Shown here piece after piece: positions 1 through 28,906 of a DNA stretch of 42,539 bases. The position numbers were made by a program, and so were the translations under genes. The notes under the pieces were generated by a model. That model searched no databases and was not told where the DNA came from. It worked only from the letters and a program-made list of their open reading frames with translations. The stretch lies in NCBI GenBank assembly GCA_021846025.1, contig JAJZDV010000009.1, positions 1-42,539 on the forward strand, read 5' to 3'. The DNA comes from Pseudomonadota bacterium (GTDB taxonomy: Bacteria > Pseudomonadota > Gammaproteobacteria > Burkholderiales > Burkholderiaceae_C). Numbering within the stretch: the stretch's first letter is position 1; the number at the start of each line of letters is the position of its first letter.

Positions 1-1
1 T

Positions 2-1042: not shown

Positions 1043-1084
1043 AGCGCATCAATAACTCCGGGCAATGGGTAGAGGACTGAGTAG

Positions 1085-3109: not shown

Positions 3110-3138
3110 TTTAACCAGGTATCCAGCGGAGCAGATTT

Positions 3139-3780: not shown

Positions 3781-3792
3781 TAGGTCAGGCCA

Positions 3793-5790: not shown

Positions 5791-6089
5791 TCACACAAGA
5801 CGGTGTCTGCATGGCGTCGGCGACCGGACGGACTCGGTTGCCGACGCGGCTTGGCGGGGTGACGCAGGGCTGCTCGCGGGCCCAGATCGCCTCGGGAAGA
5901 TCTGCCCGAGCCCTTCGTCGACACCCGGCGGGTGCCCTGCGGCCGAGGTGTTCAGGACGATCGCACCACAGACGTTGCGCCGTGGGTGAAGCGGCCGATT
6001 GCGCCTCGCCCTGTTGTGACTCGCAGCCCCGGCTGAACCGGCCGCACAGAGTCGAGCTGTTCGTCAGCCGTGGGGTGGAGCCTGCAGCA

Positions 6090-10587: not shown

Positions 10588-10881
10588 CTGGTTGTCCTCG
10601 TGAGGTTCACGCAATGTGTCCGGTTCGCGGCGGTTGCCGCGTGGTCATCCGGTCGGCTCGAGCGCCCGAATTCTAGGGCCACACCACCCAGGCGGAGCCT
10701 GCCGACGTCGAACCTCGCGAAGCCGGTTCAACCGATGGCCCGAGGTCGAGCCTCGTCCTGAAGGCTGTGTCCGGCAGCGACAAGATCGTGGCCTCGAGCG
10801 GGGTCTCCACGCGCACACCGCTTGGCCGATGGCGCATGGGTGGGCAGCGGCCGGGTGCTGTCGCGCAACGCTGCACCCGGC

Positions 10882-14845: not shown

Positions 14846-15622
14846 ATGACCGTGGTGGATGACGACAACATCAAGCGGGACAGTGTTGCGGGAATCGAGA
14901 AGGGATTGCGGGTGATTGAAGCTTTCGCCGATGCCCACCCGCGGCTGAGCGCGTCGACGGCCGCCAAACGCACCGGCCTAAGCCGCACGGCGGCCCGTCG
15001 CTACCTGCTGACCTTGTTTCGCCTGGGTTACCTGGAAAGCGACGGCTCGATGTTTTGGCTGACGCCGCGGGTGTTGCGCCTGGGCTGGTCCTATTTCGAT
15101 TCGGCGCGGCTGCCGCGTACCGTGCAGCCTTTCCTGCAGCAGATCAGTCGCGAACTGGGCGGGATCACGGCTTCCTTTGGCGTGCTCGACGACGGGGATT
15201 TGGTCTTCATTGCGCGCAACGTGTCGAGCAACTACCAGACCCTGAGCTTCATGCTCGGGTCGCGGGTGCCGGCGAATGTGGCCTCCGCGGGGATCGCCCT
15301 GCTGTCCTGCCTGTCGCGGGCAGAGGTCGACGTCTGGCTGGCGCGGCAGAAGCTCATTCCCTACACGTCGATGACGGTGACGCGTCACGACGAGGTGCGT
15401 GCCGTGATCGACCGCGCGCGCCAGGACGGCTTCGCGATGCTTGAGCAGCAAATGGAGCGGGACCGGCGCGGCATCGCCGTGCCGGTGCAGGCGCGCAACG
15501 GCCGAGTCGTCGGCGCGCTGAGCGTCAGCCTGCCGATGAGCGGAGAGACCGCCAAGTCGGCGATCGCCCGCGTGCTCCCGCTGCTGCGCTTGGCCGAGCA
15601 TTCGCTGCTGTCGTTGCTCTGA
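14846..15622 (+). CDS. IclR-family regulator, PcaU/PobR-like
   Basis: The protein has 258 residues from ATG 14846; a GTG at 14852, with better spacing from the AGGAG at 14841-14845, is an alternative. An N-terminal winged helix (SVAGIEKGLRVIEAFAD, then AAKRTGLSRTAARRYLLTL) is followed by the IclR effector domain (FLQQISRELGG, NVSSNYQTLSFMLGSRVP, RRGIAVPVQARNG). The sequence resembles the PcaR/PcaU/PobR group, which senses protocatechuate, beta-ketoadipate or 4-hydroxybenzoate. It sits between the divergent gene sets and is the best candidate for their controller. The effector is unknown. Confidence 0.88.
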   Translation: MTVVDDDNIKRDSVAGIEKGLRVIEAFADAHPRLSASTAAKRTGLSRTAARRYLLTLFRLGYLESDGSMFWLTPRVLRLGWSYFDSARLPRTVQPFLQQISRELGGITASFGVLDDGDLVFIARNVSSNYQTLSFMLGSRVPANVASAGIALLSCLSRAEVDVWLARQKLIPYTSMTVTRHDEVRAVIDRARQDGFAMLEQQMERDRRGIAVPVQARNGRVVGALSVSLPMSGETAKSAIARVLPLLRLAEHSLLSLL

Positions 15623-15967
15623 GCGCCTGTGGGCCACGGCCCGCACGGCATGCCCGGCCCGTGGCCTGCGCTGGCACGCTGGCCACGGGTCCGGCCGGCA
15701 CAGCTGGAGCGCACCGGGAGCCGGGCCGCGAGTCCACGCGGAACATGGCTTGCACCGCGGGCCTGCCTGCAAGCCCCCGGGAGCGGCCGCGCGCACCGTG
15801 CGGCGAGATGAACGGGTGCCCGCTCCGGGCCCTCCGTCGGTCCGAACCGTCGACTCCAGAGCCGCCGGTGGCGCGCGCCGTGACGCCCTCGACCCAATGG
15901 GGTGAGTGGGGGTGAAAGACGACGAAGCCGTGCGGCAAAGTGCGCGATATTTGGCGTCGGGTGCGCG

Positions 15968-15981
15968 TATTGCGCGCAATA
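15968..15981. promoter_or_regulatory. Perfect 14-bp palindrome, candidate operator
   Basis: TATTGCGCGCAATA reads identically on both strands. It lies 15 bp upstream of a candidate -35 element, a suitable position for an activator. Its TTGCGCG half-site matches the spaced pair in front of the IclR gene. Confidence 0.5.
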
Positions 15982-15996
15982 ACGCCATCCCTCAGA

Positions 15997-16025
15997 TTGT
16001 TGGGGGGGGAGGGGATTTCTAGCAT
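15997..16025 (+). promoter_or_regulatory. Candidate sigma-70 promoter of the rightward operon
   Basis: TTGTTG at 15997-16002 and TAGCAT at 16020-16025 are separated by 17 bases. Both boxes are imperfect (3/6 and 4/6 to consensus), as expected for an activated promoter. A poly-G tract fills much of the spacer. Confidence 0.4.
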
Positions 16026-16042
16026 GAAGCACTGACAAGCTT

Positions 16043-16067
16043 ATCGGCCTTTCGAGCGCCGATTTTT
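16043..16067 (+). terminator. Small hairpin with T-tract in the leader (possible attenuator)
   Basis: ATCGGC (16043-16048) pairs with GCCGAT (16058-16063) over a 9-base loop, and the right arm runs into five T residues. It lies just downstream of the candidate promoter and ends 18 bases before the start of the first gene. The 6-bp stem is short, so termination would be partial at best. Confidence 0.35.
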
Positions 16068-16085
16068 GCTGCCGAAGAGACGCTG

Positions 16086-16919
16086 ATGCCAATCCGTTAT
16101 TCCCTCGCCCACCTCACCGTGCTGGGTTGCCCGACGCCCGAAATGGTCTATGTGGCCAGCAGGGCTGGGTACGATTATGTGAGCCCTCGCCTGATCTACA
16201 TGGGGCTGCCCGGCGAGCCCAACTACGCGCTGGCCGACAACCCGGAATTGATGCGTCAGACCCGGCGCGCGCTGGCCGAGACCGGGCTGCGGGTCCACGA
16301 CATCGAACTGGCACGCGTGCACGACAACATGCACCCGACCAAGTACCTTCCGGCGATGGAGGTGGCTGCGGAACTGGGTGCCAAGGCGGTGCTCTCCAGC
16401 ATCTGGACCCAGGATATCCCCTATGCGACGGAAAAATTCGCGCAGATCTGCGATCTCGCGGCCCCGTTCGGGCTGACTGTCGACCTGGAGTACGTTCCGA
16501 TTTCCAGCGTGAACACCCTTGCCGGCGCCGCCTCGGTGCTGCGTGCGGTGCAAAAGCCCAATGCCGGGTTGATGGTGGACATGCACCATTTCCACCGGGC
16601 ACAAGACAACCCTGCAGATCTGGACATGCTGCCGCGCGCGTGGTTCCACTTCGCGCACCTGTGCGACGCCGTCGGGGAAATCCCGACAGACCGCGCAGAA
16701 ATGACGCGGATCCTGCGGGAAGAGCGGCTGTATGTCGGCGAAGGTGGAATCGACGTCGCCTCGATCCTGCGGCATCTTCCGCTGGAGGTGTATTCGATCG
16801 AACTCCCGCACCTGAAGCGGGCGAAGGAGTTCGGTTTTGCCGAGCACGCCTTCCGCTGCCTGGAATCGGCCAAGACCTACGTGGCACGGCACGCGATCAC
16901 GCCCGGGAGCGCCGGATGA
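16086..16919 (+). CDS. Sugar phosphate isomerase/epimerase-type TIM barrel, metal site complete
   Basis: The protein has 277 residues of the AP_endonuc_2 fold. All four expected metal ligands can be placed: E135 (VDLEYVP), D165 (LMVDMHHFH), H191 (FAHLCDA) and E239 (YSIELPH). A GEGGID loop precedes the last ligand. Enzymes of this fold include epimerases, isomerases, inosose dehydratase and 3-dehydroshikimate dehydratase. With AroD and AroE homologues downstream, dehydration or epimerisation of a cyclic polyol acid is likely, but the substrate is not fixed. It is the first gene of the rightward set, 48 bp before the DMT carrier gene. Confidence 0.82.
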   Translation: MPIRYSLAHLTVLGCPTPEMVYVASRAGYDYVSPRLIYMGLPGEPNYALADNPELMRQTRRALAETGLRVHDIELARVHDNMHPTKYLPAMEVAAELGAKAVLSSIWTQDIPYATEKFAQICDLAAPFGLTVDLEYVPISSVNTLAGAASVLRAVQKPNAGLMVDMHHFHRAQDNPADLDMLPRAWFHFAHLCDAVGEIPTDRAEMTRILREERLYVGEGGIDVASILRHLPLEVYSIELPHLKRAKEFGFAEHAFRCLESAKTYVARHAITPGSAG

Positions 16920-16967
16920 TCGTGTTGCGGCCGACGCTCGGACCGGCGCGCCCGCGGAGCCTGCGCG

Positions 16968-17855
16968 ATGCTTGATGTCGCGCACCGTCATCGTCACGGG
17001 CATGGTGTCGCCCTGGCTTTCGCCGCGACACTGATGTTCGCCAGCGCCGACACGCTGTCGAAGTATCTCGCCGGCATTTATCCGATCAACCAGATCGTCT
17101 TTGCGCGCTACGTGGTTCCGCTGCTGCTCGTGGTGGCGATGTACGGCCCACGCCGCGGCGTCGCGCTGGTGCGCACGCAGCATCCCTGGCTGCAGGTGCT
17201 GCGGGGGCTCCTGCTGACCAGCTGCACCGTGACCATCGTGCTGGCGATGCGCATGATGCCGATTGCCGAGGCGCAGGCCATCAGCTTCATCCACCCCCTG
17301 TTGCTGACGCTGATCGCGGTTGTATTCCTGCGCGAGCGTGTCAACCCGCTGGTCTGGCTGGCGATCGCGATGGGGTTCGGCGGCGTGCTGTTGATCGTGC
17401 GGCCCGGAGGCGGGTTCGACACTCCGGCCGTGCTGCTGCCACTGATCATGGCCTTGAGCTACGCGTTGTACCAGGCGCTGACGCGCTATGTGACAGCTCG
17501 CGACGCGGTGGCCAACTCGATGTTTTTCGTGATGCTGGTGGGCGCCGCGGTGACCGGAATTTCGTTGATGCTCTCGCACAAATCTCCCGACCTGCGCGGT
17601 GGATTGCTGCTCGGCTGCGCCGGATTGTTTTCGGGATCGGGGCACTTTTGCATGATCCGCGCGCTGGAATCGGCGCCGGCGTCGCGTGTGGCGCCGGTGG
17701 CTTACGTGCAGGTGCTGTGGGTCATCCTGCTCGGGGCATGGGTGTTCGGAAACCTTCCGGTCGGGCTGACCCTGCTGGGCATCGCCATGGTTGTCGGCGG
17801 AGGCCTGTTCGCAACCATGGCGCGCCCGGCGCCGGTGGCCGCAGCCCTGACCTGA
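16968..17855 (+). CDS. DMT-superfamily (EamA) transporter
   Basis: The protein has 295 residues with ten hydrophobic segments arranged as two EamA repeats. The first includes FAATLMFASADTLSKYLAG and the second LPLIMALSYALYQALTRY. The sequence GVALAF before the first helix and the Lys/Arg-rich inner loops suggest an inner-membrane protein with cytoplasmic termini. Such carriers export or import metabolites; the direction cannot be told here. It lies between the TIM-barrel gene and the CoA-transferase gene, probably in one transcript. Confidence 0.88.
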   Translation: MLDVAHRHRHGHGVALAFAATLMFASADTLSKYLAGIYPINQIVFARYVVPLLLVVAMYGPRRGVALVRTQHPWLQVLRGLLLTSCTVTIVLAMRMMPIAEAQAISFIHPLLLTLIAVVFLRERVNPLVWLAIAMGFGGVLLIVRPGGGFDTPAVLLPLIMALSYALYQALTRYVTARDAVANSMFFVMLVGAAVTGISLMLSHKSPDLRGGLLLGCAGLFSGSGHFCMIRALESAPASRVAPVAYVQVLWVILLGAWVFGNLPVGLTLLGIAMVVGGGLFATMARPAPVAAALT

Positions 17856-17933
17856 AGCCCAGCGCATGAAACAGCGTGTCTGGCGAGCCGGGCGATCGCC
17901 ATTTTGCGGTGCAGCAGCCTTCTGTCGTTTTCC

Positions 17934-19202
17934 ATGGATATGAATCAGACTCCCAACACATCACAGGCTCCCGCCGGGGGCGAGTCGCAGTCGAAGTCGA
18001 AGTCGCAGTCGCTGGCGGCCATCCGCGTGCTCGACCTGACCAATGTTCTGGCAGGCCCGTTCTGCGCCTACCAGCTGGCCTTGCTCGGAGCTGAGGTGAT
18101 CAAGGTCGAGGAGCCACGCCGGGGAGATCTTGCGCGCCAGCTCGGCGCCGACGCTGGCCTCAACGCCCGTTTCATGGGCGCGTCATTCATCGCGCAGAAC
18201 GCGGGCAAGAAATCCCTTGCACTCGACCTGAAGCAACCGGCAGGGCGCGAGGCACTGATGCGCCTGGTCGATAGCGCCGACGTGCTGATCGAGAACTTCC
18301 GCCCCGGCGTGATGGACCGCCTGGGACTGGGCTACGACGTGCTCCGCCAGCGCAATCCGCAACTGGTGTACTGCGCGATCTCCGGCTTCGGCCAGGACGG
18401 GCCGATGAGGTCCGCGCCCGCCTACGACCAGATCGTGCAGGGGCTCTCGGGAGTCATGAGCATCACGGGCGACGCCGAAAGTGCGCCGCTGCGTGTGGGG
18501 TACCCGATCTGCGACTCCATCGGCGGGCTCACCGCGGCGTTCGCGGTGACCAGCGCGCTGGTCGGCCGGGCCCAACACGGGCGCGGCCAGTTCATCGATG
18601 TCTCGATGCTCGATGCGACGCTGGTGACCATGGGGTGGGTGGTTTCCAACTTCCTCATCGCCGGACGCGAGCCGCAGCCGCTGGGCAACGAAAACTTCAC
18701 CGCAGCGCCTTCCGGCACCTTCGCCACAGGCGAGGGACTGCTCAACATCGCCGCCAATCGGCAAGAGCAGTTCGTCGCGCTCACCGAGCTCATCGGACGC
18801 CCCGAGCTGGCGCAGGATCCGAGATTCGCCGAACGCGAAGCGCGCAAGCGCCATCGCGCGCAGCTCAAGGAACAGATTGAACAGGCGCTGGCGGCGCGGC
18901 CGGCCCATGAATGGGAGCGGCTTCTGGCCGAGAAAGGGGTTCCGGCAGGTCGGGTGCTGAGCGTGCCCGATGCCCTGGCCCATCCGCAGGTCAGGCAGCG
19001 CGAGCTGCTGGCGCACTTCGATTCCGCAGCCGGTGTGGACCGGCCGTTCGACGTCGTGCGCAGCGGCTTCAAGACGAGCGAAGGCAACCCCGACGTGACC
19101 CTGCCGCCGCCGCGGCTGGGCGAGCACAGCGAGGAAATCCTGGGCTCGATCGGCTATTCGGCAGACGCGATTGCGGCCATGCGCGCACAGGCGGTGATCT
19201 GA
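17934..19202 (+). CDS. CaiB/BaiF family (class III) CoA-transferase
   Basis: The protein has 422 residues if started at ATG 17934; an in-frame ATG at 17904 adds a 10-residue, unlikely N-terminus. Class III features are clear: LDLTNVLAGPFCAYQLALLGAEVIKVE, ENFRPGVMDRLGL, YCAISGFGQDGP, the catalytic aspartate in GYPICDSIGG (D194) and DVSMLDA. The family transfers CoA between carboxylic acids or acts as an acyl-CoA lyase/racemase. Here it may activate the substrate acid or an intermediate. The short SKSKSQS stretch near residue 22 comes from a small direct repeat. No clear ribosome site precedes the start. Confidence 0.88.
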   Translation: MDMNQTPNTSQAPAGGESQSKSKSQSLAAIRVLDLTNVLAGPFCAYQLALLGAEVIKVEEPRRGDLARQLGADAGLNARFMGASFIAQNAGKKSLALDLKQPAGREALMRLVDSADVLIENFRPGVMDRLGLGYDVLRQRNPQLVYCAISGFGQDGPMRSAPAYDQIVQGLSGVMSITGDAESAPLRVGYPICDSIGGLTAAFAVTSALVGRAQHGRGQFIDVSMLDATLVTMGWVVSNFLIAGREPQPLGNENFTAAPSGTFATGEGLLNIAANRQEQFVALTELIGRPELAQDPRFAEREARKRHRAQLKEQIEQALAARPAHEWERLLAEKGVPAGRVLSVPDALAHPQVRQRELLAHFDSAAGVDRPFDVVRSGFKTSEGNPDVTLPPPRLGEHSEEILGSIGYSADAIAAMRAQAVI

Positions 19203-19260
19203 TTTCGACGACACACCGGGCCGCGCTGCACAGGGCGGCTCGCAACACCAGGAGACCGGC

Positions 19261-21024
19261 ATGAAACAACTTATCTCGCATCAACTCGTCCGCTACCTCG
19301 AAGACCGTGGCGTCAAGCACATCTTCGGGCTTTGCGGTCACACCAACATCGCGGTGCTGTCCGCGCTGGAAAACAGCTCGATTCGCTTCATCAACACGCG
19401 GCACGAGCAGATTGCCGCGCATGCCGCCGATGGCTACGCGCGGGCTCGCAACGAAACGGCCGTGGTTCTCAGCCACCTTGGCCCGGGGCTGACCAATGCC
19501 GCCACCGGAGTGGCCAACGCCGCGCTCGATTCGATCCCGATGGTGGTGATCGCCGGGGACATCCCCAGCTACTACTACGGCAAGCATCCTCACCAGGAGG
19601 TCAACATGCATGCCGACGCGGCGCAATGGGAGATCTACCGACCCTTCGTCAAGCGCGCATGGCGCGTGGACCGCGCCGACCTCTTCCCGGAGATCATCGA
19701 CAAGGCCTTTCAACTGGCCGAGAGCGGTCGCCCAGGGCCGGTGCTGGTGTCCGTGCCGATGGACATCTTCTCGGCCGAGATCGACGAGGCCTTGTTCGCC
19801 AGGGTCAGCCGCCACACGCGCAAGCTGACCAAGCCGTCGATCGACGATCCGACCGCACGACGCATCGTGCAGTCGCTGCTCGACGCAAGCAGCCCGCTGA
19901 TCTACGCCGGTGGCGGCGTGATCCTGGCCGGCGCTGCCGATGAACTGCGCCGTCTCGTCGACCACCTGAGCCTGCCGGTTGCGCATTCGCTGATGGGCAA
20001 GGGGGTGCTGCCCGACGACCATGACCTGACGCTGGGCATGACCGGGTTCTGGGGCACGCAGTTCGTCAACGACCGCTGCCTCGGTGCCGACTGGATCCTG
20101 GGGCTGGGCACGCGCTTTTGCGAGGCCGACTGCAGCTCGTGGGAAAGCGCCTACACCTTCAATATTCCGGGTGCGAGCAAGCTCATCCATATCGACGTCG
20201 ATCCCAGCGAGATCGGGCGCAACTACCCGGCCGAGATCGGCGTCGTCGCCGATTTGCGCCAGGCGCTCGCGGTGCTCAATCGCGTGGCGCGCGAGATGCT
20301 GCCCGAGGGGCGGCGCGACGACGCGTTGCGCCAATCGATCGCCGAATACCGCAAGGAATTCGTCGCCGGAAATCGCGCCTTCGCCGAAGATGACAGCTTC
20401 CCGATGATGCCCGAGCGCATTCTCGCGGTGGCGCGCGATGTGCTGCCGCGCGACGCGATCATCACCACCGACGTCGGTTGGAACAAGAACGGCGTCGGCC
20501 AGCAGTTCCCGGTCTATGAACCGGGATCGATCCTGACCCCGGGCGGCTACGCGACGATGGGATTCGGTGCGCCGGCGGCGATGGGGGCCAAGCTCGCGTT
20601 CCCGCACCGCGTGGTCGTCTCGCTAGTGGGCGACGGCGGCTTCGGCCAGAACCCGGCGCTGCTGGCCACTGCGGTCGAAGAGAACATCCCGGTGGTGTGG
20701 GTGGTCATGAACAACTTCGCGTTCGGCACGATCGCCGGGTTGCAGAAGGCGCATTTCGGCACGACGCTGGGAACGGTGTTCGTGAAAGACGGCAAACCCT
20801 ACCAGGCGGACTTCGCGGCGGTCGCCCGCGCCTACGGAGCGCTGGGCGAGAAGGTTGAATCGGCGGCCGCATTCAAGGAGATCCTCGAGCGCGCGATCGC
20901 GTCGAACAAGCCCTTCGTCATCGACGTCGCCATGCGCAACAACCCGGTGCCGACCTCGGGCCACTGGAACATCCTCGACATTTACTCGCCGCAAGGCGGC
21001 GTGTCGCATGTCAGCACCGATTGA
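19261..21024 (+). CDS. Thiamine-diphosphate enzyme, acetolactate-synthase-like
   Basis: The protein has 587 residues with the three-domain ThDP fold. The catalytic glutamate is E49 (NTRHEQIAAHAADGYAR), and the cofactor motif starts with GDGG at 457 and ends with VMNN. The N-terminal motif GLCGHTNIAVL and the loop HPHQEVNMHAD are not those of classical IlvB. It does not look like sulfoacetaldehyde acetyltransferase. Relatives include IolD and cyclohexane-1,2-dione hydrolase, which open rings, as well as decarboxylases and ligases. Together with two aldehyde dehydrogenases downstream, it may produce an aldehyde from a 2-oxo acid or cyclic dione. AGGAG lies 6 bases before the start. Confidence 0.85.
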   Translation: MKQLISHQLVRYLEDRGVKHIFGLCGHTNIAVLSALENSSIRFINTRHEQIAAHAADGYARARNETAVVLSHLGPGLTNAATGVANAALDSIPMVVIAGDIPSYYYGKHPHQEVNMHADAAQWEIYRPFVKRAWRVDRADLFPEIIDKAFQLAESGRPGPVLVSVPMDIFSAEIDEALFARVSRHTRKLTKPSIDDPTARRIVQSLLDASSPLIYAGGGVILAGAADELRRLVDHLSLPVAHSLMGKGVLPDDHDLTLGMTGFWGTQFVNDRCLGADWILGLGTRFCEADCSSWESAYTFNIPGASKLIHIDVDPSEIGRNYPAEIGVVADLRQALAVLNRVAREMLPEGRRDDALRQSIAEYRKEFVAGNRAFAEDDSFPMMPERILAVARDVLPRDAIITTDVGWNKNGVGQQFPVYEPGSILTPGGYATMGFGAPAAMGAKLAFPHRVVVSLVGDGGFGQNPALLATAVEENIPVVWVVMNNFAFGTIAGLQKAHFGTTLGTVFVKDGKPYQADFAAVARAYGALGEKVESAAAFKEILERAIASNKPFVIDVAMRNNPVPTSGHWNILDIYSPQGGVSHVSTD

Positions 21025-21082
21025 TGCATTTGCAGTTCTACCAACCGCCGGAAACGGCTCATAACCACGAAGGAGGAGTTCT

Positions 21083-22405
21083 ATGTCCACACTCAAATCG
21101 CTCAGCGCCGCGCTGTTTTCGGCGGGCATCCTGGTCGCCGCGCTGCCGGCGGCACATGCCGACGAGATTGCCGACCTCAAGTCCGCGGTGCAACAACTGC
21201 AGGCCGAAGTGCAACAACTGAAGGCGCAGCAGACGCAGACTGCGCAACAGACGGCCGCCACGCAGAAGATGGTCGCGGAGAAGCCCGCCAGCACCACGCC
21301 GATCTGGAATCCGAACGACCCGCTGCGCCTCGGCGGCAAGGACAACTTCGTCAAGCTGTATGGCGATGTCGACGAGTTCGGCGCCTACCTGCACAGCAGC
21401 TCGGGTGCGAACCTGACGTCCCTGTACGACGGCGCCCTGCTGCGCAGCCGCCTGGGCTTGACCGGCAGCCGCGTCGTCGCTCCCGACTATGCGATGAACT
21501 TCGTCCTCGAGCAGAGCCTGGACTTCCGCAACGGCGGCAATCCGGGCGCCGGACGCCTGTTCGACCGCCAGGCCTGGGCCGGCGTGCAGACTCCCGTGGG
21601 TGAATTCCGCGTCGGCCGCCAGAACACCATCGCCTTCTTCGACGGCGGCAAGATCGACTTCACGTCGCGCACCCTGGGTTCGGTGGTCAACGCCTTCGGC
21701 GTGCCGTCGCGCTTCGATCGCGACATTTCGTACAGCTCGCCACGCATGGCCGGCCTGCATCTGCAGGCGCACTACGCCTTGTCGTCAGCCAACGGCAGCA
21801 CCGTGGGCAGCAACGGCGCGGTCTACCAGCTGGGCGCCGATTACACGAATGGCCCGATCGATGTCGGCTACAACGGTCTGTGGGGCAATGCTCCGGCCGG
21901 CGCGACCTACAACACCAAGGCCGAGTACCAGAATCTCTACGCCGACTACAACTACGGCCGCGGCAAGGTCTACCTGACCTATGTGCGCTCCAACGTCGGC
22001 CCGAACAGCGGCTTCAGCAACATCGGTGGTGCCTATTCGGCGGCGACGGGCGTGACGACACCGCTGACCGGAACCGGCGCCGGCATCAACAACTACTACA
22101 ACATCTACCAGATTTCGGCCGACTACGATGTCACCGAGGCGCTGCGTTTGGGTGCGCTGTACGGCCAAATCCGCAGCAGCACCGTCTCCAATGCCGGAGC
22201 CAAGGGCTGGGCGGCCGGGGCCTTCTACACCGGCTACAAGAGCACCACCCTGTACGCCCTCGTCAACGGCCTGAGCAACGATTCCAACGCAGCCTTCATG
22301 GAAGCTGGCTCGTCGGGTCCGCTGAACAGTCCGGGGTTCTCGCAAGCCGATCTGACGGGCAAGAGGATCACCGGGATCGAAGCGGGTTTCTTGTACAAGT
22401 TCTAA
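21083..22405 (+). CDS. Outer-membrane porin
   Basis: The protein has 440 residues. A signal peptide ends at AHA (residue 26), followed by a coiled-coil segment with LKSAVQQLQAEVQQL, a Thr/Gln linker and a beta-barrel domain rich in alternating hydrophobic residues. It ends in aromatic Phe (GFLYKF), the usual outer-membrane assembly signal. An N-terminal coiled coil before the barrel is typical of long porins that trimerise and may bind peptidoglycan. A strong GGAGGAG ribosome site precedes the ATG. It probably lets the catabolic substrate into the periplasm for the LivK-type binding protein. Confidence 0.9.
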   Translation: MSTLKSLSAALFSAGILVAALPAAHADEIADLKSAVQQLQAEVQQLKAQQTQTAQQTAATQKMVAEKPASTTPIWNPNDPLRLGGKDNFVKLYGDVDEFGAYLHSSSGANLTSLYDGALLRSRLGLTGSRVVAPDYAMNFVLEQSLDFRNGGNPGAGRLFDRQAWAGVQTPVGEFRVGRQNTIAFFDGGKIDFTSRTLGSVVNAFGVPSRFDRDISYSSPRMAGLHLQAHYALSSANGSTVGSNGAVYQLGADYTNGPIDVGYNGLWGNAPAGATYNTKAEYQNLYADYNYGRGKVYLTYVRSNVGPNSGFSNIGGAYSAATGVTTPLTGTGAGINNYYNIYQISADYDVTEALRLGALYGQIRSSTVSNAGAKGWAAGAFYTGYKSTTLYALVNGLSNDSNAAFMEAGSSGPLNSPGFSQADLTGKRITGIEAGFLYKF

Positions 22406-22472
22406 CGGTCTGCGGTCTGCAAGCGTCCTGCGCCCTGCGGCGCGGGACGCCGATGGCCAGGAGGTGATGGCA

Positions 22473-23255
22473 ATGAACATGAGTCGATCGATCCAGTTGC
22501 GCGGGCGCGTGGTCGCCGGTGGCGCTGAACCCCTGGTCTGCGCGCCACTGGTCGCACGCGACCTGGACAGCCTGCGTGCCGAGGCGGCGACGGTGGTGGC
22601 GAAGCAACCCGACCTGCTGGAATGGCGGGTGGACTTCTTCGAGGCGCTTGGCGATGTCGACCGCATCGCCGGGGCCGCGCGCGAGCTGCGGCGTATCGCC
22701 AGGGACATCCCGATCATCTACACGAGGCGGTCGATCCGGGAGGGCGGGCAGCCCATCACGGCTTCGGAGGACACCGTCAGTCGCGGCATCGAGACGGTGT
22801 GCGCGGACGGATCCGTCGATTTCGTCGATTGCGAACTCGGCAGCGCCCCCGAGCATTTCCAGCGCGCCCTGCGGGCGGCGAAGGCTTCGGGCGCGCTGCT
22901 GATCGGCTCGTTCCACGACTTCCAGCGCACGCCGAGCCTGAGCGACTTGGCCGAGAAATTCGCCACGGCCGAGCGCCTGGGCGCCGACGTGGCGAAGGTG
23001 GCCGTGATGCCGGGCGACGTCGGCGACGTGCTGGCTCTGCTGCAGGCGACGCTGGATGCATCGAGGCGCCATGCCATGCCCCTGATCACCATGTCGATGG
23101 GACCGTACGGCGCGCTGACCCGGCTGTTCGGCTGGATGTTCGGCTCGACCGTCAGTTTTGCCGTCGGTTCGCGCGCGTCGGCTCCCGGCCAGGTGCCGAT
23201 CGACGATGTGCGAAGCGTGCTGGAGGTCCTCAGGCGCTCGCTCAGCGCGCGTTGA
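22473..23255 (+). CDS. aroD: Type I 3-dehydroquinate dehydratase
   Basis: The protein has 260 residues from ATG 22473, chosen for AGGAGG at 22459-22464; a GTG at 22464 and an ATG at 22467 lie in frame upstream but sit on or too near this site. Type I features are intact: DLLEWRVDFF, the catalytic His148 in GSFHDFQRTP, the Schiff-base Lys175 in VAKVAVMP, and ITMSMGPYG with FAVGSRASAPGQ at the end. It interconverts 3-dehydroquinate and 3-dehydroshikimate. Many betaproteobacteria use a type II enzyme for biosynthesis, so this copy in a catabolic operon is probably degradative. The enzyme identity is firm. Confidence 0.92.
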   Translation: MNMSRSIQLRGRVVAGGAEPLVCAPLVARDLDSLRAEAATVVAKQPDLLEWRVDFFEALGDVDRIAGAARELRRIARDIPIIYTRRSIREGGQPITASEDTVSRGIETVCADGSVDFVDCELGSAPEHFQRALRAAKASGALLIGSFHDFQRTPSLSDLAEKFATAERLGADVAKVAVMPGDVGDVLALLQATLDASRRHAMPLITMSMGPYGALTRLFGWMFGSTVSFAVGSRASAPGQVPIDDVRSVLEVLRRSLSAR

Positions 23256-23362
23256 ACCAGCGGGGGCAGCCCCGCGTTCGCGCCCGCCGATTGAATCGAA
23301 CGGCATTTTTCCCAACGAATCACACGAGGACCGTCGCCGGCACGATCGGCACGGAGAACGCG

Positions 23363-24853
23363 ATGTCACAAGTCGAAGCGCTGGCGCGTTACGAGCTCTT
23401 CATCGACGGCGAGTCGGTGGCGCCCGCCGGGGGCGAATACTTCGCCAGCCAGGATCCGTTCACCGGCAAGGACTGGGCGATGATCGCCCGCGGCTCGCAG
23501 GCCGATGTCGACCGCGCGGTGCGTGCGGCCCGGCGCGCCTTCGAGACGGGCGCTTGGCCGGCGTTGAGCGCCTCGGGGCGCGGCGCGCTGCTGCGGCGTC
23601 TTGCCGACCTGATTGGCGAGAGCGCGCCGCGCCTAGCCGAGATCGAGCGGCGCGACAACGGCAAGCTCGCGGCGGAAGTGGTCACCCAGGTCAACTACCT
23701 GTCCGAGTACTTTCATTACTACGCCGGCCTGGCCGACAAGGTGCAGGGCACGGTGATCCCGACGGACAAGCCGGGGGTGCTGGCGTTCACGCGCCACGAG
23801 CCCAAGGGTGTTGTGGCGATCATCACGCCATGGAACTCGCCGCTGACCCTGACCAGCTGGAAGCTGGCGCCGGCGCTGGCGGCGGGTTGCACCGTGGTCA
23901 TCAAGCCCTCCGAATTCACCTCGGCGTCGATGCTGGAATTCGCCGAGCTGTTCGCCCGCGCAGGCTTCCCGCCGGGCGTGGTCAACGTCGTCACCGGCTT
24001 CGGCCCCGAGGTCGGCGCGCCCTTGGTGGCGCACCCGGACGTGGCGCACATCGGCTTCACCGGCGGCGAGATCGCGGGGCAGAAGATCTACGAGGCTGCG
24101 GCGCGCGGCCTCAAGACGGTCACTCTCGAGCTCGGTGGGAAGTCGCCGAACATCGTGTTCGACGACGCCGACCTTGATCGCGCGTTGCTGGGCGTGGTCA
24201 GTGGAATCTTCGCCGCGGCGGGGCAGACCTGCCAGGCCGGATCGAGGCTTCTGGTGCAGGAGAGCATCCACGATGCCTTCGTCCAGCGCCTGGTCGGCTT
24301 CGTCTCCAACGTCCGGCTCGGCGATCCTGCCGATCCGCAAACCCAGATCGGCCCGATCGCGACCCGGCCGCAGTTCGAGAAGATTCTTTCCTACATCGAG
24401 ATTGCCAGGGCGGAGGGCGCGCGCTGCGTGACGGGCGGCCGCGCACGCCCCGACATCGGCTCGGGACAGTTTGTCGAGCCGACCGTCTTCGTCGGTGTCG
24501 ACAACCGCATGCGCATCGCCCAGGAGGAGGTGTTCGGGCCCGTGCTCTCGGTGATTGCGTTCAAGGACGAGGCCGATGCGGTGCGCATCGCCAACGATGT
24601 GCAGTTCGGCCTGGCTGCCGGTGTCTGGACCCGCAGCCTTCAGCGAGCGTTGTATGTCACCGAGAAGATCAAGGCCGGCACGGTTTGGGTCAACAACTAC
24701 CGCGCCACCAGCTACACCTCGCCGTTCGGCGGATTCAAGCGATCGGGGATCGGTCGTGAATCAGGGATCGAGGCGATCCAGGACTACTTCGAGACCAAGT
24801 GCGTCTGGCTGTCTTCGGACCTTGACGTCCAGAACCCATTCGTGCGCCGCTGA
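23363..24853 (+). CDS. NAD(P)-dependent aldehyde dehydrogenase
   Basis: The protein has 496 residues and is a classical ALDH. It shows the nucleotide segment ITPWNSPL and KPSEFTS, the general base Glu256 in LELGGKSP and the nucleophile Cys290 in GQTCQAGSR. The C-terminal GGFKRSGIGRESG and EEVFGPVLSV blocks are typical. It oxidises an aldehyde to the acid; the substrate is unknown. The gene lies 107 bp after aroD and 47 bp before the CoA-acylating dehydrogenase, and an aldehyde from the ThDP enzyme is a plausible substrate. GGAG lies 6 bases upstream of the start. Confidence 0.92.
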   Translation: MSQVEALARYELFIDGESVAPAGGEYFASQDPFTGKDWAMIARGSQADVDRAVRAARRAFETGAWPALSASGRGALLRRLADLIGESAPRLAEIERRDNGKLAAEVVTQVNYLSEYFHYYAGLADKVQGTVIPTDKPGVLAFTRHEPKGVVAIITPWNSPLTLTSWKLAPALAAGCTVVIKPSEFTSASMLEFAELFARAGFPPGVVNVVTGFGPEVGAPLVAHPDVAHIGFTGGEIAGQKIYEAAARGLKTVTLELGGKSPNIVFDDADLDRALLGVVSGIFAAAGQTCQAGSRLLVQESIHDAFVQRLVGFVSNVRLGDPADPQTQIGPIATRPQFEKILSYIEIARAEGARCVTGGRARPDIGSGQFVEPTVFVGVDNRMRIAQEEVFGPVLSVIAFKDEADAVRIANDVQFGLAAGVWTRSLQRALYVTEKIKAGTVWVNNYRATSYTSPFGGFKRSGIGRESGIEAIQDYFETKCVWLSSDLDVQNPFVRR

Positions 24854-24900
24854 TCCAGCGGCCGCACCCAATCCTACCCAACCGAGTGGAGCAACGCGAC

Positions 24901-26325
24901 ATGGCAGAAGCCGAGGTCAAAAAGAGCATCACCGAAGAGCAGCAACACGAACTCGATCAGGCGTTCGAGCGCGCCCGCAAGGCGCTGGCCATCGTCGAAA
25001 CCTACGATCAGGCCCGGGTCGACCGGCTGTGCCAGGCGGTCGCCTGGGCGGTTGCCAACAAGACCACCTTCACCCGCCTGGTGGCCGAAGGCATCGCCGA
25101 GAGCGGCCTGGGAGATCCCGAAAGCCGCATGGGCAAGCGCATGAAGATCCGCGGCGTGCTGCGCGATGCGCTGCGGCAAAAGAGTGTGGGCATCATCGAG
25201 GAGGTTCCCGAGAAGGGCATCGTCAAGTACGGCAAGCCGGTCGGGGTGATTGCGTGCATCGTGCCGACCACCAACCCCGACCTCACCCCCGCGGGCAACG
25301 CGATTTACGCACTCAAAGCTCGCGACGCGGTGATCTTCTCGCCGCACCCACGCTCGAAGAAAACCTCTTTCGAGACCGTGCGCCTGATGCGCGAGGCGTT
25401 GGTGCGCGAAGGCGCGCCGCCCGACCTGTTGCAGTGCCTGACCAGGGTGAACATCCCGATGTCCCAGGCGCTGATGGCGCGTGCCGACCTGATCATCGCG
25501 ACCGGCGGCCAGCCGATGGTGCGCGCCGCGTACAGCTCGGGCACGCCGGCGTACGGCGTGGGGGCGGGCAACTCGACCATGATCATCGACGAGACGGCCG
25601 ACATCGCCGAAGCGGCGCGCAACACCCGCTTGTCCAAGACGTCGGACTTCGGCTCGGGCTGCTCGGCGGATGGCAACCTCATCATCGAAGCGACAATCTT
25701 TCAAGCCGTCCTGGAGCAGCTTCAGGCCGAGGGTGGCTACCTGGCGAGCGAGCAGGAAAAAGACATGCTGCGCCGCGCCATGTGGGATGACGACGGCCAT
25801 CGGCTGGCGGACACGGTCGCGATTGCGCCGCAGCAGTTGGCACGCGCAGCCGGGTTCACGGTTGCGGATGACCGCAAGTTCATCATCGTGCATGGTGACG
25901 GCATCGGCAAACAGCACCGGTTTTCGGGCGAAAAGCTGACGACTTTGCTGGCGGTCTACCCGTACAGCGGTTTCGACCAGGCGCTGGAGATGATGCGGGC
26001 AATCTACGAAGTGGGTGGCAAGGGACATTCCTGCGGCATCTACTCCTTCGCCCAGGACCACATCCATCGCCTGGCGATGGCCGCGCCGGTCAGCCGCATC
26101 ATGGTGCGCCAGCCGCAGTCCAAGGCGAACGCCGGGGCATTCAACAACGGCATGCCGATGACCTCCAGCCTGGGTTGCGGCACCTGGGGCGGCAACATCG
26201 TGTCGGAGAACGTGCATCTCAAGCACTACCTCAACACCACCTGGGTGTCGGTGCCCATCCAGGAGGACCGTCCGTCCGACGCCGAGCTGTTCGGCGACTT
26301 CTACGACCCGGCATGCGAAGCCTGA
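24901..26325 (+). CDS. CoA-acylating aldehyde dehydrogenase, SauS/EutE-like
   Basis: The protein has 474 residues and resembles CoA-acylating aldehyde dehydrogenases such as sulfoacetaldehyde dehydrogenase SauS. Motifs include KYGKPVGVIACIVPTTNP, a GVGAGNS loop and the catalytic cysteine in GSGCSADGN (C254). The C-terminal part (SSLGCGTWGGN and LNTTWVS) is typical of the group. It converts an aldehyde to an acyl-CoA, or the reverse. It begins 47 bp after the classical ALDH and ends 14 bp before the citryl-CoA-lyase-like gene. The SauS resemblance does not prove sulfonate metabolism; the other Sau genes are not present. Confidence 0.86.
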   Translation: MAEAEVKKSITEEQQHELDQAFERARKALAIVETYDQARVDRLCQAVAWAVANKTTFTRLVAEGIAESGLGDPESRMGKRMKIRGVLRDALRQKSVGIIEEVPEKGIVKYGKPVGVIACIVPTTNPDLTPAGNAIYALKARDAVIFSPHPRSKKTSFETVRLMREALVREGAPPDLLQCLTRVNIPMSQALMARADLIIATGGQPMVRAAYSSGTPAYGVGAGNSTMIIDETADIAEAARNTRLSKTSDFGSGCSADGNLIIEATIFQAVLEQLQAEGGYLASEQEKDMLRRAMWDDDGHRLADTVAIAPQQLARAAGFTVADDRKFIIVHGDGIGKQHRFSGEKLTTLLAVYPYSGFDQALEMMRAIYEVGGKGHSCGIYSFAQDHIHRLAMAAPVSRIMVRQPQSKANAGAFNNGMPMTSSLGCGTWGGNIVSENVHLKHYLNTTWVSVPIQEDRPSDAELFGDFYDPACEA

Positions 26326-26339
26326 AGCGGGATTTCAAG

Positions 26340-27194
26340 ATGAACGACAAGCAGAGTGCCGAGCTGGTGCAAGCCGCATCCGACTGGTGGTCAACCTCCA
26401 TCATCGACATCCACCCCGGCAAGATCGCCATCCGAGGCTACCCGATCGAGCAATTGATCGGACAGGTGCGTTTTCCCGAGATGATCTGGCTGATGCTCCG
26501 CGGCGAGTTGCCGAGCCGCGCGCAGTCCGATCTGCTCGAAGCCGCCCTTGTGCCGGGAGTCGACCATGGACCCCATGCGCCGTCGATCGCGATTTCGCGC
26601 ATGGCGGTGAGCTGCGGCCTGCCGGTCAACGGGGCGATGGCCTCGGCGATCAACGTGCTCGACGACGTGCATGGCGGCGCCGGCCAGCAATGCATGGAGC
26701 TCTATCGCGCCATCGACGCCGAGGCGGGCCCGGCAGGCGACCTGCAGTTGGCTGCCAGCGCGGTTCTGGCACGCTGGCGCGAGGCTGGGGTCAAGATCGT
26801 GCCCGGCTTCGGGCACCGCTTCCACCCGATCGACCCACGCACCGCGCCACTGTTCGAACTCGTGGCGAAAGCGGTGCAGGCCGGTGCGGTCAGCGGGCGT
26901 TACGCCGCGATCGGGCATGCTGTCGAAGCCGCACTCGGTGCAGCCAAGGGGCGGCACATCCCGATGAACATCGACGGCATCACCGCGGTGATTTTTTGCG
27001 AACTCGGCTTCGAACCCGAACTCGGCCGCGGCTTGTTCATCCTGTCGCGATCGGTGGGCATCCTCGCGCATGCCTGGGAGCAAAAGCAGCAGGGCGCGCG
27101 CATCAAGGGTCCGATGCCGAAGGACATCGACTACACCTACACCGGACCGGCTCGGCGCGACCTTCCCCCCAGGTCCGAGTCGAACCCGCATTGA
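26340..27194 (+). CDS. Short citrate synthase-fold protein, citryl-CoA lyase-like
   Basis: The protein has 284 residues, much shorter than citrate synthase (about 430), and matches the citryl-CoA lyase group. The catalytic triad can be placed: H111 (DDVHGGAG), H159 (VPGFGHRFH) and D212 (MNIDGITA). IKGPMPKDIDYTYTGP near the end fits this group too. The reaction would be a retro-Claisen or Claisen step on a CoA ester, e.g. citryl-CoA to acetyl-CoA and oxaloacetate or an analogue. An upstream in-frame ATG at 26313 would overlap the previous gene. It follows the acylating dehydrogenase, which may supply or use its CoA ester. Confidence 0.83.
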   Translation: MNDKQSAELVQAASDWWSTSIIDIHPGKIAIRGYPIEQLIGQVRFPEMIWLMLRGELPSRAQSDLLEAALVPGVDHGPHAPSIAISRMAVSCGLPVNGAMASAINVLDDVHGGAGQQCMELYRAIDAEAGPAGDLQLAASAVLARWREAGVKIVPGFGHRFHPIDPRTAPLFELVAKAVQAGAVSGRYAAIGHAVEAALGAAKGRHIPMNIDGITAVIFCELGFEPELGRGLFILSRSVGILAHAWEQKQQGARIKGPMPKDIDYTYTGPARRDLPPRSESNPH

Positions 27195-27213
27195 CGCGGC
27201 AATGGAGATGAGC

Positions 27214-28050
27214 ATGGACAAGACTTTCAAATTCGCGGGAGTGATGGGATGGCCGGTCGCGCATTCGCGCTCACCGGTGATCCACAACTTCTGGGTGCGT
27301 CAGCACAAGCTCCAGGCCGCGTATGGGCTGTTCCCGGTCAAGCCGGAGCATCTCACCGACGCCGTGCGTGGAATCCGCGCCTTGGGCATCGCCGGCTGCA
27401 ACGTGACCATTCCGCACAAGGTGGCGATCATGCCCATGCTGGATGTGATCCATCCGCTGGCTCGCCGCATGGGCGCGGTCAACACGGTGGTCGCCGGAGT
27501 CGACGGCTCGCTGACGGGCTACAACTTCGATGGCTACGGCTACATCCAATGCCTGCGCGATGCCAAGCCGGACTGGAAAGCCGGCGCTGGGCCGGTGACC
27601 GTGCTGGGCGCCGGCGGCGCGGCACGCGCGGTGGTGCTGAGCCTGCTGGACGAAGGCGCGCCGCGCATCCGCTTGATCAACCGCACGCGCGGCAAGGCCG
27701 AGGCGATGGCCGCCGAGTTCGGCGCGGCCGTGGAGGTGCACGGCTGGGATGAGCGCCACGAGGCCCTGGCCGACGTGGCGCTGCTGGTCAACACCACCAA
27801 CCAGGGCATGCACGGGCATCCCGCGCTGGACCTGCATCTCGACCGTCTGCCGAAGACTGCGCTGGTGTCCGACGTGATTTACATCCCGCTCGAGACTCCG
27901 CTGCTGGCGGCCGCGCGCGCACGCGGCAACCCGACGGTCAACGGCCTGGGGATGTTGCTCAACCAGGCACGTCGCGGCTTCGAACTCTGGTTCGGCGTGC
28001 AGCCGCAGATCGCCGACGAGCTGCGCGCCGCGCTGGCCGCGACATTCTGA
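27214..28050 (+). CDS. Shikimate dehydrogenase (AroE family)
   Basis: The protein has 278 residues from ATG 27214, preceded by GGAG about 6 bases upstream; an ATG at 27202 has no ribosome site. AroE features are intact: S18 and S20 in HSRSP for carboxylate binding, K69 in NVTIPHK, N90 in GAVNTVV, D106 in YNFDGYG and the Rossmann motif VLGAGGAARAV. It is thus a canonical shikimate or quinate dehydrogenase, in contrast to the divergent copy at 7353. Its position after the citryl-CoA-lyase gene suggests a degradative role on quinate, shikimate or a related ring, not the housekeeping biosynthetic step. Confidence 0.88.
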   Translation: MDKTFKFAGVMGWPVAHSRSPVIHNFWVRQHKLQAAYGLFPVKPEHLTDAVRGIRALGIAGCNVTIPHKVAIMPMLDVIHPLARRMGAVNTVVAGVDGSLTGYNFDGYGYIQCLRDAKPDWKAGAGPVTVLGAGGAARAVVLSLLDEGAPRIRLINRTRGKAEAMAAEFGAAVEVHGWDERHEALADVALLVNTTNQGMHGHPALDLHLDRLPKTALVSDVIYIPLETPLLAAARARGNPTVNGLGMLLNQARRGFELWFGVQPQIADELRAALAATF

Positions 28051-28078
28051 GCTGCCCATCCCCCGCCCGGCCATCGCC

Positions 28079-28906
28079 ATGAGCGTTTTCGACCAGCCCA
28101 AGATCGACACCCACTGCCATCTGCTCGACCCCGACCATTTTCCCTATGCGCCGGATGTCGCATACCGCCCAGCGGGTCAGGAAATCGGCGCGCAGGGCTA
28201 CTTCGAGCAGGTCATGGCCTGCTTCCATGTGACCCACGCACTGCTGGTCGGGCCGAACTCGGGCTACAACATCGACAACCGCTGCCTGCTGCATGCCCTG
28301 GACACCGGGGGCGGCAAGTTCAAGGGCATCGTCGTGCTGCCGCAGGACGCGTCGCTGGAAACTCTGGCGGCGCTGAAGGCGCGGGGCGTGCTGGGTGTCG
28401 CGTTCAACCCGGCGATGCACGGCGTGGCCTACTGCGCCGGACTGCGCCCGCTGTTGCTGCGCCTGGCCGAGCTAGGCCTGTGGGCGCAGTTCCAGATCGA
28501 GGGCGACCAACTCGTCGAGCTGCTGCCGATGCTCAACAGCGTCCCCGATCTGCGGCTGATGTTCGATCACTGCGGGCGCCCCGTCGTCTCGCGCGGCCTG
28601 CAGCAGCCCGGGTTCCAGGCACTGCTGGCGCTGGGGCGGGAGCGGCGCGCGGCGGTCAAGCTATCGGGCGAGGCCAAGTTTGCCGAGACCCCGTTCCCCT
28701 TCCCCGACGTCGAACCGTACATCGAGGCGCTGGTGCAGGCCTTCGGCACGGAGCACTGCATGTGGGCTTCCGACTGGCCGTACCTGAAGGCGCCGTTCCG
28801 CCTGGATTTCGGACCGATGCTGCGGCGCTGGGAGCGAATGTTCACCGCGGCCGAGCGCCGGCAGCTGATGCACGACACGGCCGCCAGGCTGTTCGATTTC
28901 GCCTGA
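28079..28906 (+). CDS. Amidohydrolase_2 family hydrolase, LigI-like
   Basis: The protein has 275 residues of the PF04909 family. Visible features are the metal or substrate-binding HxH (THCH, residues 12 and 14), a FDHCG motif near residue 163 and the late aspartate in ASDWPYLKAPF. Members include 2-pyrone-4,6-dicarboxylate lactonase (LigI), which acts in the protocatechuate 4,5-cleavage route, and other lactonases or decarboxylases. It is the last gene of the rightward set, 28 bp after the AroE gene, and it faces the convergent srkA gene. A lactone or enol-lactone hydrolysis step is the most reasonable role. Confidence 0.82.
   Translation: MSVFDQPKIDTHCHLLDPDHFPYAPDVAYRPAGQEIGAQGYFEQVMACFHVTHALLVGPNSGYNIDNRCLLHALDTGGGKFKGIVVLPQDASLETLAALKARGVLGVAFNPAMHGVAYCAGLRPLLLRLAELGLWAQFQIEGDQLVELLPMLNSVPDLRLMFDHCGRPVVSRGLQQPGFQALLALGRERRAAVKLSGEAKFAETPFPFPDVEPYIEALVQAFGTEHCMWASDWPYLKAPFRLDFGPMLRRWERMFTAAERRQLMHDTAARLFDFA

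Follow-up and report, generated by a model that had tools for sequence, protein, structure and literature searches.

What might a bacterium degrade with an operon in which a dehydroquinase and an AroE protein stand beside a thiamine diphosphate (ThDP) enzyme, two aldehyde dehydrogenases (ALDH) and a citryl-CoA lyase homologue? This question is raised by positions 14846-28906 of a stretch of 42,539 nucleotides (contig JAJZDV010000009.1 of assembly GCA_021846025.1), called here the window. As contig 145, it belongs to a metagenome-assembled genome near Thiomonas (2.93 Mb, 203 contigs, completeness 89.8%); by the ThDP gene, the nearest named relatives are Thiomonas, among the best 80 of at least 589 relatives. 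The answer favoured here, with a probability of roughly 0.6, is that the operon would degrade quinate and shikimate independently of oxygen and by way of non-aromatic intermediates, working like inositol catabolism. In its fuller form, the proposal is a widespread and undescribed pathway leading from quinate or shikimate through a cyclic 3,4-dione, homocitrate semialdehyde and homocitryl-CoA to acetyl-CoA and 2-oxoglutarate, with interchangeable enzymes at its steps; we give this version slightly better than even odds. Quinate and shikimate are abundant plant acids, and their breakdown is taught as proceeding via protocatechuate and oxygen-dependent ring cleavage.

The operon and its recurrence

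A preliminary description, made from the letters of the stretch alone, had listed a catabolic gene set; all the genes that it named are indeed present, intact and in the same direction. The operon comprises twelve genes, all on the plus strand. Intergenic gaps are 7-107 bp from the TIM barrel gene onward, and the IclR gene is set apart by 463 bp. The functions marked as proposed belong to the route discussed below.

14846..15622, plus: IclR-family regulator, PcaR/PcaU/PobR subgroup (Pfam IclR_C and HTH_IclR; NCBIfam TIGR02431, 245 bits, cutoff 285)
16086..16919, plus: AP_endonuc_2 TIM barrel (PF01261), proposed 3-dehydroquinate C5-dehydratase yielding the 3,4-dione
16968..17855, plus: EamA-family transporter (PF00892)
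17934..19202, plus: class III CoA-transferase, CaiB (PF02515, 413 bits; top NCBIfam match succinate-glutarate CoA-transferase, 298 bits, cutoff 750), proposed to load homocitrate with CoA
19261..21024, plus: ThDP enzyme (TPP_enzyme N, M and C; below the acetolactate synthase cutoff; GHTN aligned with His28 of cyclohexane-1,2-dione hydrolase, CDH), proposed ring-opening hydrolase
21083..22405, plus: porin, uptake (PF13609)
22473..23255, plus: type I 3-dehydroquinase, AroD (PF01487; TIGR01093, 185.5 bits, above the cutoff of 139.3), proposed reversible dehydroshikimate-dehydroquinate step
23363..24853, plus: oxidising ALDH (PF00171, 587 bits; no NCBIfam model over its own cutoff among the 25 models shown), proposed homocitrate-semialdehyde dehydrogenase
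24901..26325, plus: acylating ALDH, SauS-like (sulfoacetaldehyde dehydrogenase SauS NF047625, 478 bits, under the cutoff of 600; acylating ALDHs among the top PDB matches), proposed direct maker of homocitryl-CoA
26340..27194, plus: short citrate-synthase-fold lyase, Ccl (citryl-CoA lyase NF004864, 441.6 bits, over the cutoff of 261; best PDB match 6hxp, a citryl-CoA lyase), proposed homocitryl-CoA lyase
27202..28050, plus: AroE (NF001312, 342.7 bits, above the cutoff of 295), proposed quinate/shikimate 3-dehydrogenase
28079..28906, plus: lactonase-type amidohydrolase (PF04909; sulfomuconolactone hydrolase NF042924, 78 bits, cutoff 500)

This gene order is maintained across most of the operon in the close relatives L045, L047, L048 and L121. 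Beyond these, recurrence was counted around homologues of the ThDP gene. Set 1 consists of the best 80 of the at least 589 relatives (70-92% identity), from taxa that include Thiomonas, Aromatoleum, Rhodoferax, Bacilli, Geobacteraceae, Desulfuromonas and Negativicutes; 57 of these loci have at least 7.5 kb of flank on both sides. Set 2, used for validation (60-76% identity), was fetched from 26 of 33 places in one order, seven being dropped as near contig ends or of the same genus, and from 31 of 37 places in the order of B. safensis, six being already in set 1. Removal of eight loci near-identical to set 1 and of three with short flanks left 46. Two actinobacterial copies are 53% identical to the ThDP protein of the window. 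At E 1e-150 or better, members of the family were found in 4 of 397 genomes sampled from the phylum to which the window belongs, its own genome apart, in 32 of 390 genomes of one order of that phylum, and in 31 of 397 genomes in the order of B. safensis.

Families were counted within 7.5 kb of the ThDP gene, using hidden Markov models with thresholds of our choosing; those applied to set 2 were derived from loci of set 1 plus three loci on plasmids. With counts given for set 1 (n = 57) and then for set 2 (n = 46), the TIM barrel was found in 42 and 36 loci, the oxidising ALDH in 31 and 25, CaiB in 28 and 15, Ccl in 25 and 29, the SauS-like enzyme in 25 and 23, AroD in 23 and 11, a zinc alcohol dehydrogenase (Zn-ADH) in 22 and 12, AroE in 17 and 10, a relative of HMG-CoA lyase (HMGL) in 17 and 9, and the type II dehydroquinase AroQ in 12 and 5. 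Both sets together (n = 103) contain 78 loci with the TIM barrel, 97 with an acylating or oxidising ALDH, 54 with Ccl, 26 with HMGL and 23 with neither lyase. As a control, 20 other ThDP loci were taken from 11 carrier genomes, and none of the 16 with full flanks has any of the counted families. The operon is real, and the association of its core genes beyond chance is confirmed. The core of the cluster recurs also in other phyla. In Azoarcus KH32C (L036), the cluster sits on plasmid pAZKH, predicted to be mobilizable, and a TauE/SafE-family transporter comes next.

The members of the cluster appear to be exchanged at single positions. A substitute lyase for the loci without Ccl had been predicted beforehand, and a frequent neighbour family then turned out to be HMGL-like; two scanned members exceed the NCBIfam HMG-CoA lyase cutoff of 246 (343 and 299 bits). 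The pairs below give the number of loci with both families, the first only, the second only and neither, with the Fisher p.

Ccl and HMGL: set 1, 0/25/17/15, p 4.5e-6; set 2, 0/29/9/8, p 2.2e-5
SauS and ALDH: set 1, 5/20/26/6, p 4.4e-6; set 2, 2/21/23/0, p 7e-11
AroE and Zn-ADH: set 1, 0/17/22/18, p 4.8e-5; set 2, 0/10/12/24, p 0.044
AroD and AroQ: set 1, 1/22/11/23, p 0.018; set 2, 0/11/5/30, p 0.32
TIM and cupin: set 1, 0/42/5/10, p 7e-4; set 2, 0/36/1/9, p 0.22

SauS or ALDH is present in 51 of 57 and in all 46 loci. CaiB accompanies ALDH (25 of the 28 CaiB loci in set 1, 15 of 15 in set 2) and is rarely found with SauS (5/57 and 0/46). The SGC cysteine motif is kept in 62 of 63 hits of the SauS-like family. 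A small Cupin_2 protein adjoins the ThDP gene in eight set-1 loci, all without the TIM barrel (for instance L111:11785-12162); it is possibly an unrelated substitute for the TIM dehydratase. On the ThDP tree of the 103 loci, at least six lyase switches and at least six dehydrogenase switches are counted. Elsewhere, in L035 and L037-L042, Ccl homologues adjoin CoA-transferases in stretches that lack this ThDP family (a ThDP protein of L035 is 31% identical), next to succinate-semialdehyde dehydrogenases, FAD oxidoreductases or tripartite transporters. These are perhaps CoA/lyase modules for other citrate-like acids.

A proposed route from quinate and shikimate to homocitryl-CoA

Citryl-CoA lyase and HMG-CoA lyase both free acetyl-CoA from a 3-hydroxy-3-substituted acyl-CoA. 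Two unrelated lyases of this kind, combined with the conversion of a ThDP-made aldehyde into an acyl-CoA, suggest the carbon skeleton. In 3-dehydroquinate, the putative intermediate, the hydroxyl and carboxyl groups are on C1, the next carbon, C2, is a CH2, and the ketone is at C3; acetyl-CoA release by both lyase types fits the tertiary C1-hydroxyl with C3 as thioester. A retro-Claisen cleavage between C1 and C2 would then yield acetyl-CoA (C2, C3) and a 2-oxo acid. For C3 to become the thioester, the ring must open between C3 and C4, with C3 as the aldehyde. Quinate and shikimate are named as substrates on account of the dehydroquinases and AroE proteins, together with the subgroup to which the regulator belongs. 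What the analysis shows is the gene content, its recurrence, the pattern of replacement, the motifs and the predicted fold; from the enzyme families we infer the substrate, all intermediates, and the direction and regiochemistry of each step.

In this scheme, AroE, or a Zn-ADH in many relatives, would first oxidise C3, turning quinate into 3-dehydroquinate and shikimate into 3-dehydroshikimate. The dehydroquinase, of type I here and of the unrelated type II elsewhere, would hydrate dehydroshikimate to dehydroquinate, restoring the tertiary C1-hydroxyl. The presence of a dehydroquinase is thereby explained, since it would be needed for shikimate in the proposed route, instead of for quinate as in the protocatechuate route. 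The TIM barrel, resembling IolI and IolE, would take off the C5-hydroxyl to give 1-hydroxy-3,4-dioxocyclohexane-1-carboxylate. Such a loss would be of the reaction type of QuiC and IolE, and its product, a 3,4-dione, would belong to the class of compounds that CDH and IolD hydrolyse. As C1 is quaternary, this dione cannot aromatise. The ThDP enzyme would hydrolyse the C3-C4 bond as CDH and IolD do, C3 becoming an aldehyde, that of homocitrate semialdehyde. Homocitryl-CoA would be reached in one step by the acylating dehydrogenase, or in two by the oxidising dehydrogenase and then the CoA-transferase; the window has the genes for both. Finally, Ccl would split homocitryl-CoA into acetyl-CoA and 2-oxoglutarate. 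The net reaction of this scheme balances without O2 or CO2: quinate + CoA + 2 NAD+ = acetyl-CoA + 2-oxoglutarate + 2 NADH + 2 H+. Homocitrate forms a lactone, and the amidohydrolase at the end of the operon is, speculatively, a homocitrate-lactone hydrolase. The preliminary description had suggested that a carbocyclic or polyhydroxy acid is degraded by a distinct route whose end products are CoA thioesters and central metabolites; the comparison of loci supports such a route, for which the chemistry given here would be a plausible version.

The ThDP enzyme has acetolactate synthases as its closest NCBIfam and PDB relatives, and it stays below the cutoff of TIGR00118 (415.6 against 538 bits). 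Homologues in 12 genomes score about 258-281 bits with the IolD model TIGR04377, short of the cutoff of 715; an identification as IolD was dropped on this account. In 11 of these genomes, the family nevertheless tops the matches below that cutoff. In the twelfth, L205 stands above it; this 622-residue Bacillus protein (G173, contig 9) carries GHGC at the position of CDH His28 and reaches 321 bits with the IolD model. Aromatoleum diolicum 22Lin has both CDH and a member of the present family, 82% identical to that of the window. The first 184 residues of its CDH candidate match PDB 2pgn at E 1.6e-121. In the alignment, CDH His28 is matched by the histidine of GHTN in the protein of the window. 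In five IolD sequences the matching histidine is that of GHGN; GGA, GGA, GAA and GSA stand there in four further ThDP paralogues of A. diolicum, presumably acetolactate-synthase-like or Gcl-like. GHTN is found in all 141 loci compared (the window, the 80 of set 1, L036, L043, L044 and the 57 fetched for set 2, near-duplicates included). A second histidine lies one column off CDH H76 in the aligned sequences, and its motif occurs in 113 of the 141. CDH H31 and N484 are not conserved. The shared histidine favours a dione hydrolase. For CDH itself, a variant H28A/N484A appears in PMC12247030.

For the TIM barrel, an AlphaFold2 model (pLDDT 94.8) was compared with known structures by Foldseek. IolI came out best, followed by a putative sugar isomerase, the TIM/HPPD fusion 5hmq (QuiC1-type) and, lower, IolE. 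Residues E135, D165 and E239, which probably bind the metal, do not vary among 27 homologues.

The enzyme families and the logic of ring hydrolysis have precedents; as a pathway, the route would be new. In myo-inositol catabolism (IolG, IolE/IolI, IolD and IolA), a dehydrogenase, an AP_endonuc_2 TIM barrel, ThDP-dependent opening of a cyclic 1,2-dione and a later acylating ALDH are likewise combined, and the GH motif is common to IolD and the operon family. The operon differs in its dehydroquinase, CoA-transferase and acetyl-CoA-releasing lyase, and its substrate would be a carboxylic acid. CDH of Azoarcus 22Lin belongs to the same ThDP superfamily, and ring C-C hydrolysis like that of CDH is proposed for the operon enzyme; identity is about 30%, and both enzymes occur in one organism. 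Citryl-CoA lyase (6hxp) and HMG-CoA lyase (PRK05692) also release acetyl-CoA from tertiary 3-hydroxyacyl-CoA, whereas here they would act on homocitryl-CoA and replace each other between clusters. No description of the route was found in an open-access search, which leaves most subscription papers and preprints outside and does not establish absence; a search for growth of Bacillus on quinic acid returned nothing usable. Hydroaromatic acids were reportedly fermented non-aromatically in work of the 1990s.

If the proposal holds, homocitryl-CoA would become a catabolic intermediate, the dehydroquinase step would run backwards, and the anaerobic non-aromatic use of hydroaromatic acids would be explained. 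An oxygen-free route would keep all seven carbons and would assign functions to families presently named acetolactate synthase, sulfoacetaldehyde dehydrogenase, and citryl-CoA or HMG-CoA lyase. The replacement of single steps by unrelated enzymes makes the chemistry testable stepwise, at Ccl/HMGL, SauS/ALDH with CaiB, AroD/AroQ, AroE/Zn-ADH and TIM/cupin.

Objections and alternative explanations

Several observations speak against the proposed route. The nearest solved relative of the TIM barrel is IolI, presumably an isomerase. The TIM barrel is absent from 25 of the 103 loci, and the cupin is found in just six of these. No dehydroquinase lies within 7.5 kb in 23 of 57 and 30 of 46 loci. The histidine of CDH is shared by L205, an uncharacterised ThDP protein, and does not mark ring hydrolases of known function alone; the deep ThDP tree, with its long branches, leaves the kinship to CDH or IolD undecided, so that no evidence is drawn from it. 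The SauS-like and lactonase-like genes match sulfonate enzymes best, although below cutoff. Set 2 gives no significant exclusion for AroD/AroQ or for TIM/cupin, and sign tests on independent pairs of the 103-locus tree, corrected for kinship, are not significant either (median p 0.125 for the lyases, 0.25 for the dehydrogenases). As the loci are related and these tests exceed 0.05, the recurrence is firmer than the exclusion statistics. Finally, 15 of the 57 loci in set 1 and 8 of the 46 in set 2 have no lyase nearby. The 14 whole genomes behind the 15 set-1 loci were searched: Ccl was absent from all 14 at E 1e-15, and in five Bacilli an HMGL that shares 62-75% identity with the cluster type is encoded elsewhere. 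The best HMGL is 43-44% identical in six Rhodoferax, 47% in Anaerospora, and 39% in UASB270 and in a Geobacteraceae. Desulfuromonas has a 62% identical Ccl outside its short, uncounted locus L102.

A last objection comes from the protocatechuate route, for which the genome has its own genes. Two of them lie in the window:

8849..9727, minus: QuiC-like TIM barrel, first half of a split 3-dehydroshikimate dehydratase (NF042435, 126.6 bits, model positions 5-269)
9724..10614, minus: HPPD-like VOC protein, second half of the split QuiC (NF042435, 86.1 bits, model positions 286-484)

By these matches, the pair is probably the protocatechuate-forming enzyme; the best PDB match of the minus-strand TIM homologue in L101 is the fusion 5hmq. 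A split QuiC pair likewise stands beside the ThDP cluster in Aromatoleum, Azoarcus and some Rhodoferax loci. LigA and LigB are adjacent on contig 179 of the genome. Judged by its gene content, the organism thus seems equipped for two routes, one dependent on oxygen and one not, and the oxygen-free route need not be required there for growth on quinate. Two claims of the preliminary description are qualified accordingly. The absence of a ring-cleaving dioxygenase holds for the window but not for the genome, and the textbook route is probably accompanied rather than replaced in this organism. In 34 genomes, the intradiol family PF00775 was found in 7, LigA (PF07746) in 7 and neither in 22. The ThDP gene was seen in all 34 except G001, in which the part observed is the neighbouring SauS-Ccl-AroE-amidohydrolase stretch (97-98% identical). 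PF02900 (LigB), a family that takes in unrelated proteins as well, was rejected as a marker because it matches 28 of the 34 and controls such as E. coli; PF07746 was therefore used, and other extradiol dioxygenases may be present. Among eleven carriers (G156-G166), mostly anaerobes as we judge from their names, PF07746 is found in none and PF00775 weakly in two (28-29 bits). An oxygen-free route would account for presumed anaerobes without the two searched families.

Four other explanations may be envisaged; they overlap in part, so that their odds and that of the proposed route need not sum to one. Textbook catabolism, with the operon TIM barrel as a protocatechuate-forming 3-dehydroshikimate dehydratase and with the genes for ThDP, aldehyde, CoA and lyase functions belonging to a pathway that lies beside it by chance, would share with the proposed route an AroE-type dehydrogenase, the dehydroquinase and the upper intermediates. 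It draws support from the match of AroD, AroE and AP_endonuc_2 to the textbook set, from the PcaR/PcaU-like regulator and from LigAB. It is nevertheless unlikely: the operon TIM barrel is not clearly matched by the QuiC model (21.9 bits, full-length cutoff 1200), a separate split QuiC is present, the ThDP, TIM, SauS, AroD and lyase genes travel together across phyla and not with control ThDP genes, and 22 of the 34 genomes lack both searched dioxygenase families, other types not having been specifically searched. A plain protocatechuate route was set aside on the first two of these grounds. By contrast, the proposed route would use neither QuiC nor a dioxygenase and would open the ring while it is alicyclic. 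The same substrate might also undergo other chemistry, the ThDP enzyme acting as an acyloin lyase that cuts dehydroquinate or an isomer to a dialdehyde, the TIM barrel or cupin as a ketol isomerase that precedes or follows it, and SauS and ALDH on different aldehydes. The proximity of the TIM barrel to IolI and the presence of both ALDH types in the window and its close kin would suit such a scheme, to which a small but real chance is given. In most loci ALDH and SauS are alternatives to each other, which suggests one aldehyde; a hydroxylated semialdehyde would result, and no gene dedicated to it is seen; and the histidine shared with CDH and IolD speaks for a dione hydrolase.

It may further be imagined that another carbocycle, such as inositol, a cyclitol acid or a hydroxy-cyclohexane carboxylate, is degraded with AroD and AroE paralogues acting on quinate analogues. 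The iol-like logic would agree with this, as would the scanned Zn-ADH, closest to threonine and polyol dehydrogenases, and the loci without a nearby dehydroquinase. This is improbable in view of the operon AroD and AroE, which exceed the curated dehydroquinase and shikimate dehydrogenase cutoffs, and of the ThDP enzyme, which falls under the IolD cutoff when 5 of 12 carrier genomes have an additional protein over it. A sulfonate or C2 pathway (sulfoacetaldehyde, oxalate, glyoxylate) would combine SauS with a CoA-transferase of the formyl or oxalyl type and a ThDP enzyme acting as carboligase or decarboxylase. NCBIfam matches named SauS, glyoxylate carboligase, CoA:oxalate CoA-transferase and sulfomuconolactone hydrolase point that way, together with the TauE/SafE exporter beside the Azoarcus KH32C cluster. 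Every one of these named matches is below its curated cutoff, on which ground the oxalate/glyoxylate and sulfonate pathways were set aside. Two unrelated dehydroquinase types, AroE and the HMG-CoA and citryl-CoA lyases would be left unexplained, and such a pathway is very improbable.

Flanking genes and the upstream region

Beside the split QuiC, the minus strand upstream of the operon contains a second dehydrogenase and a transporter, and a putative operator precedes the TIM barrel gene:

7353..8288, minus: second AroE-like dehydrogenase (PF08501; NF001319, 135 bits, cutoff 252)
10882..14171, minus: branched-chain-type ABC transporter, with LivF, an ATPase protein and LivH (same genes beside the operon in L045, L047, L048 and L121)
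15937..15981, no strand: candidate operator for IclR, with AAAGTGCGCG and the palindrome TATTGCGCGCAATA

The ATPase protein (11606-13276, minus) belongs to the LivG type and is considerably extended at its N terminus, and its permease half is unmatched in Pfam; it is probably a LivM-LivG fusion. Upstream of the TIM gene, AAAGTGCGCG is identical in the window and five close relatives, and TGCGCG..AT.GCGCGCA.TAAC is near-identical in the same six. The palindrome TATTGCGCGCAATA is perfect in the window alone and not in the five relatives. Scans found no sigma-70 site (0, against 1.4 in shuffled sequences) and terminators at chance level (7 against 8.0). A passage of PMC8222616 gives a set of COGs for an IclR regulon that joins quinate/shikimate with 4-hydroxyphenylpyruvate metabolism, and names no such pathway as the one proposed here; this set fits the split QuiC. 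At the start of the window, positions 1-6000 have a G+C content of about 0.57-0.58, against 0.64-0.68 over most of the remainder, and encode a peptidoglycan-binding protein and several unassigned proteins.

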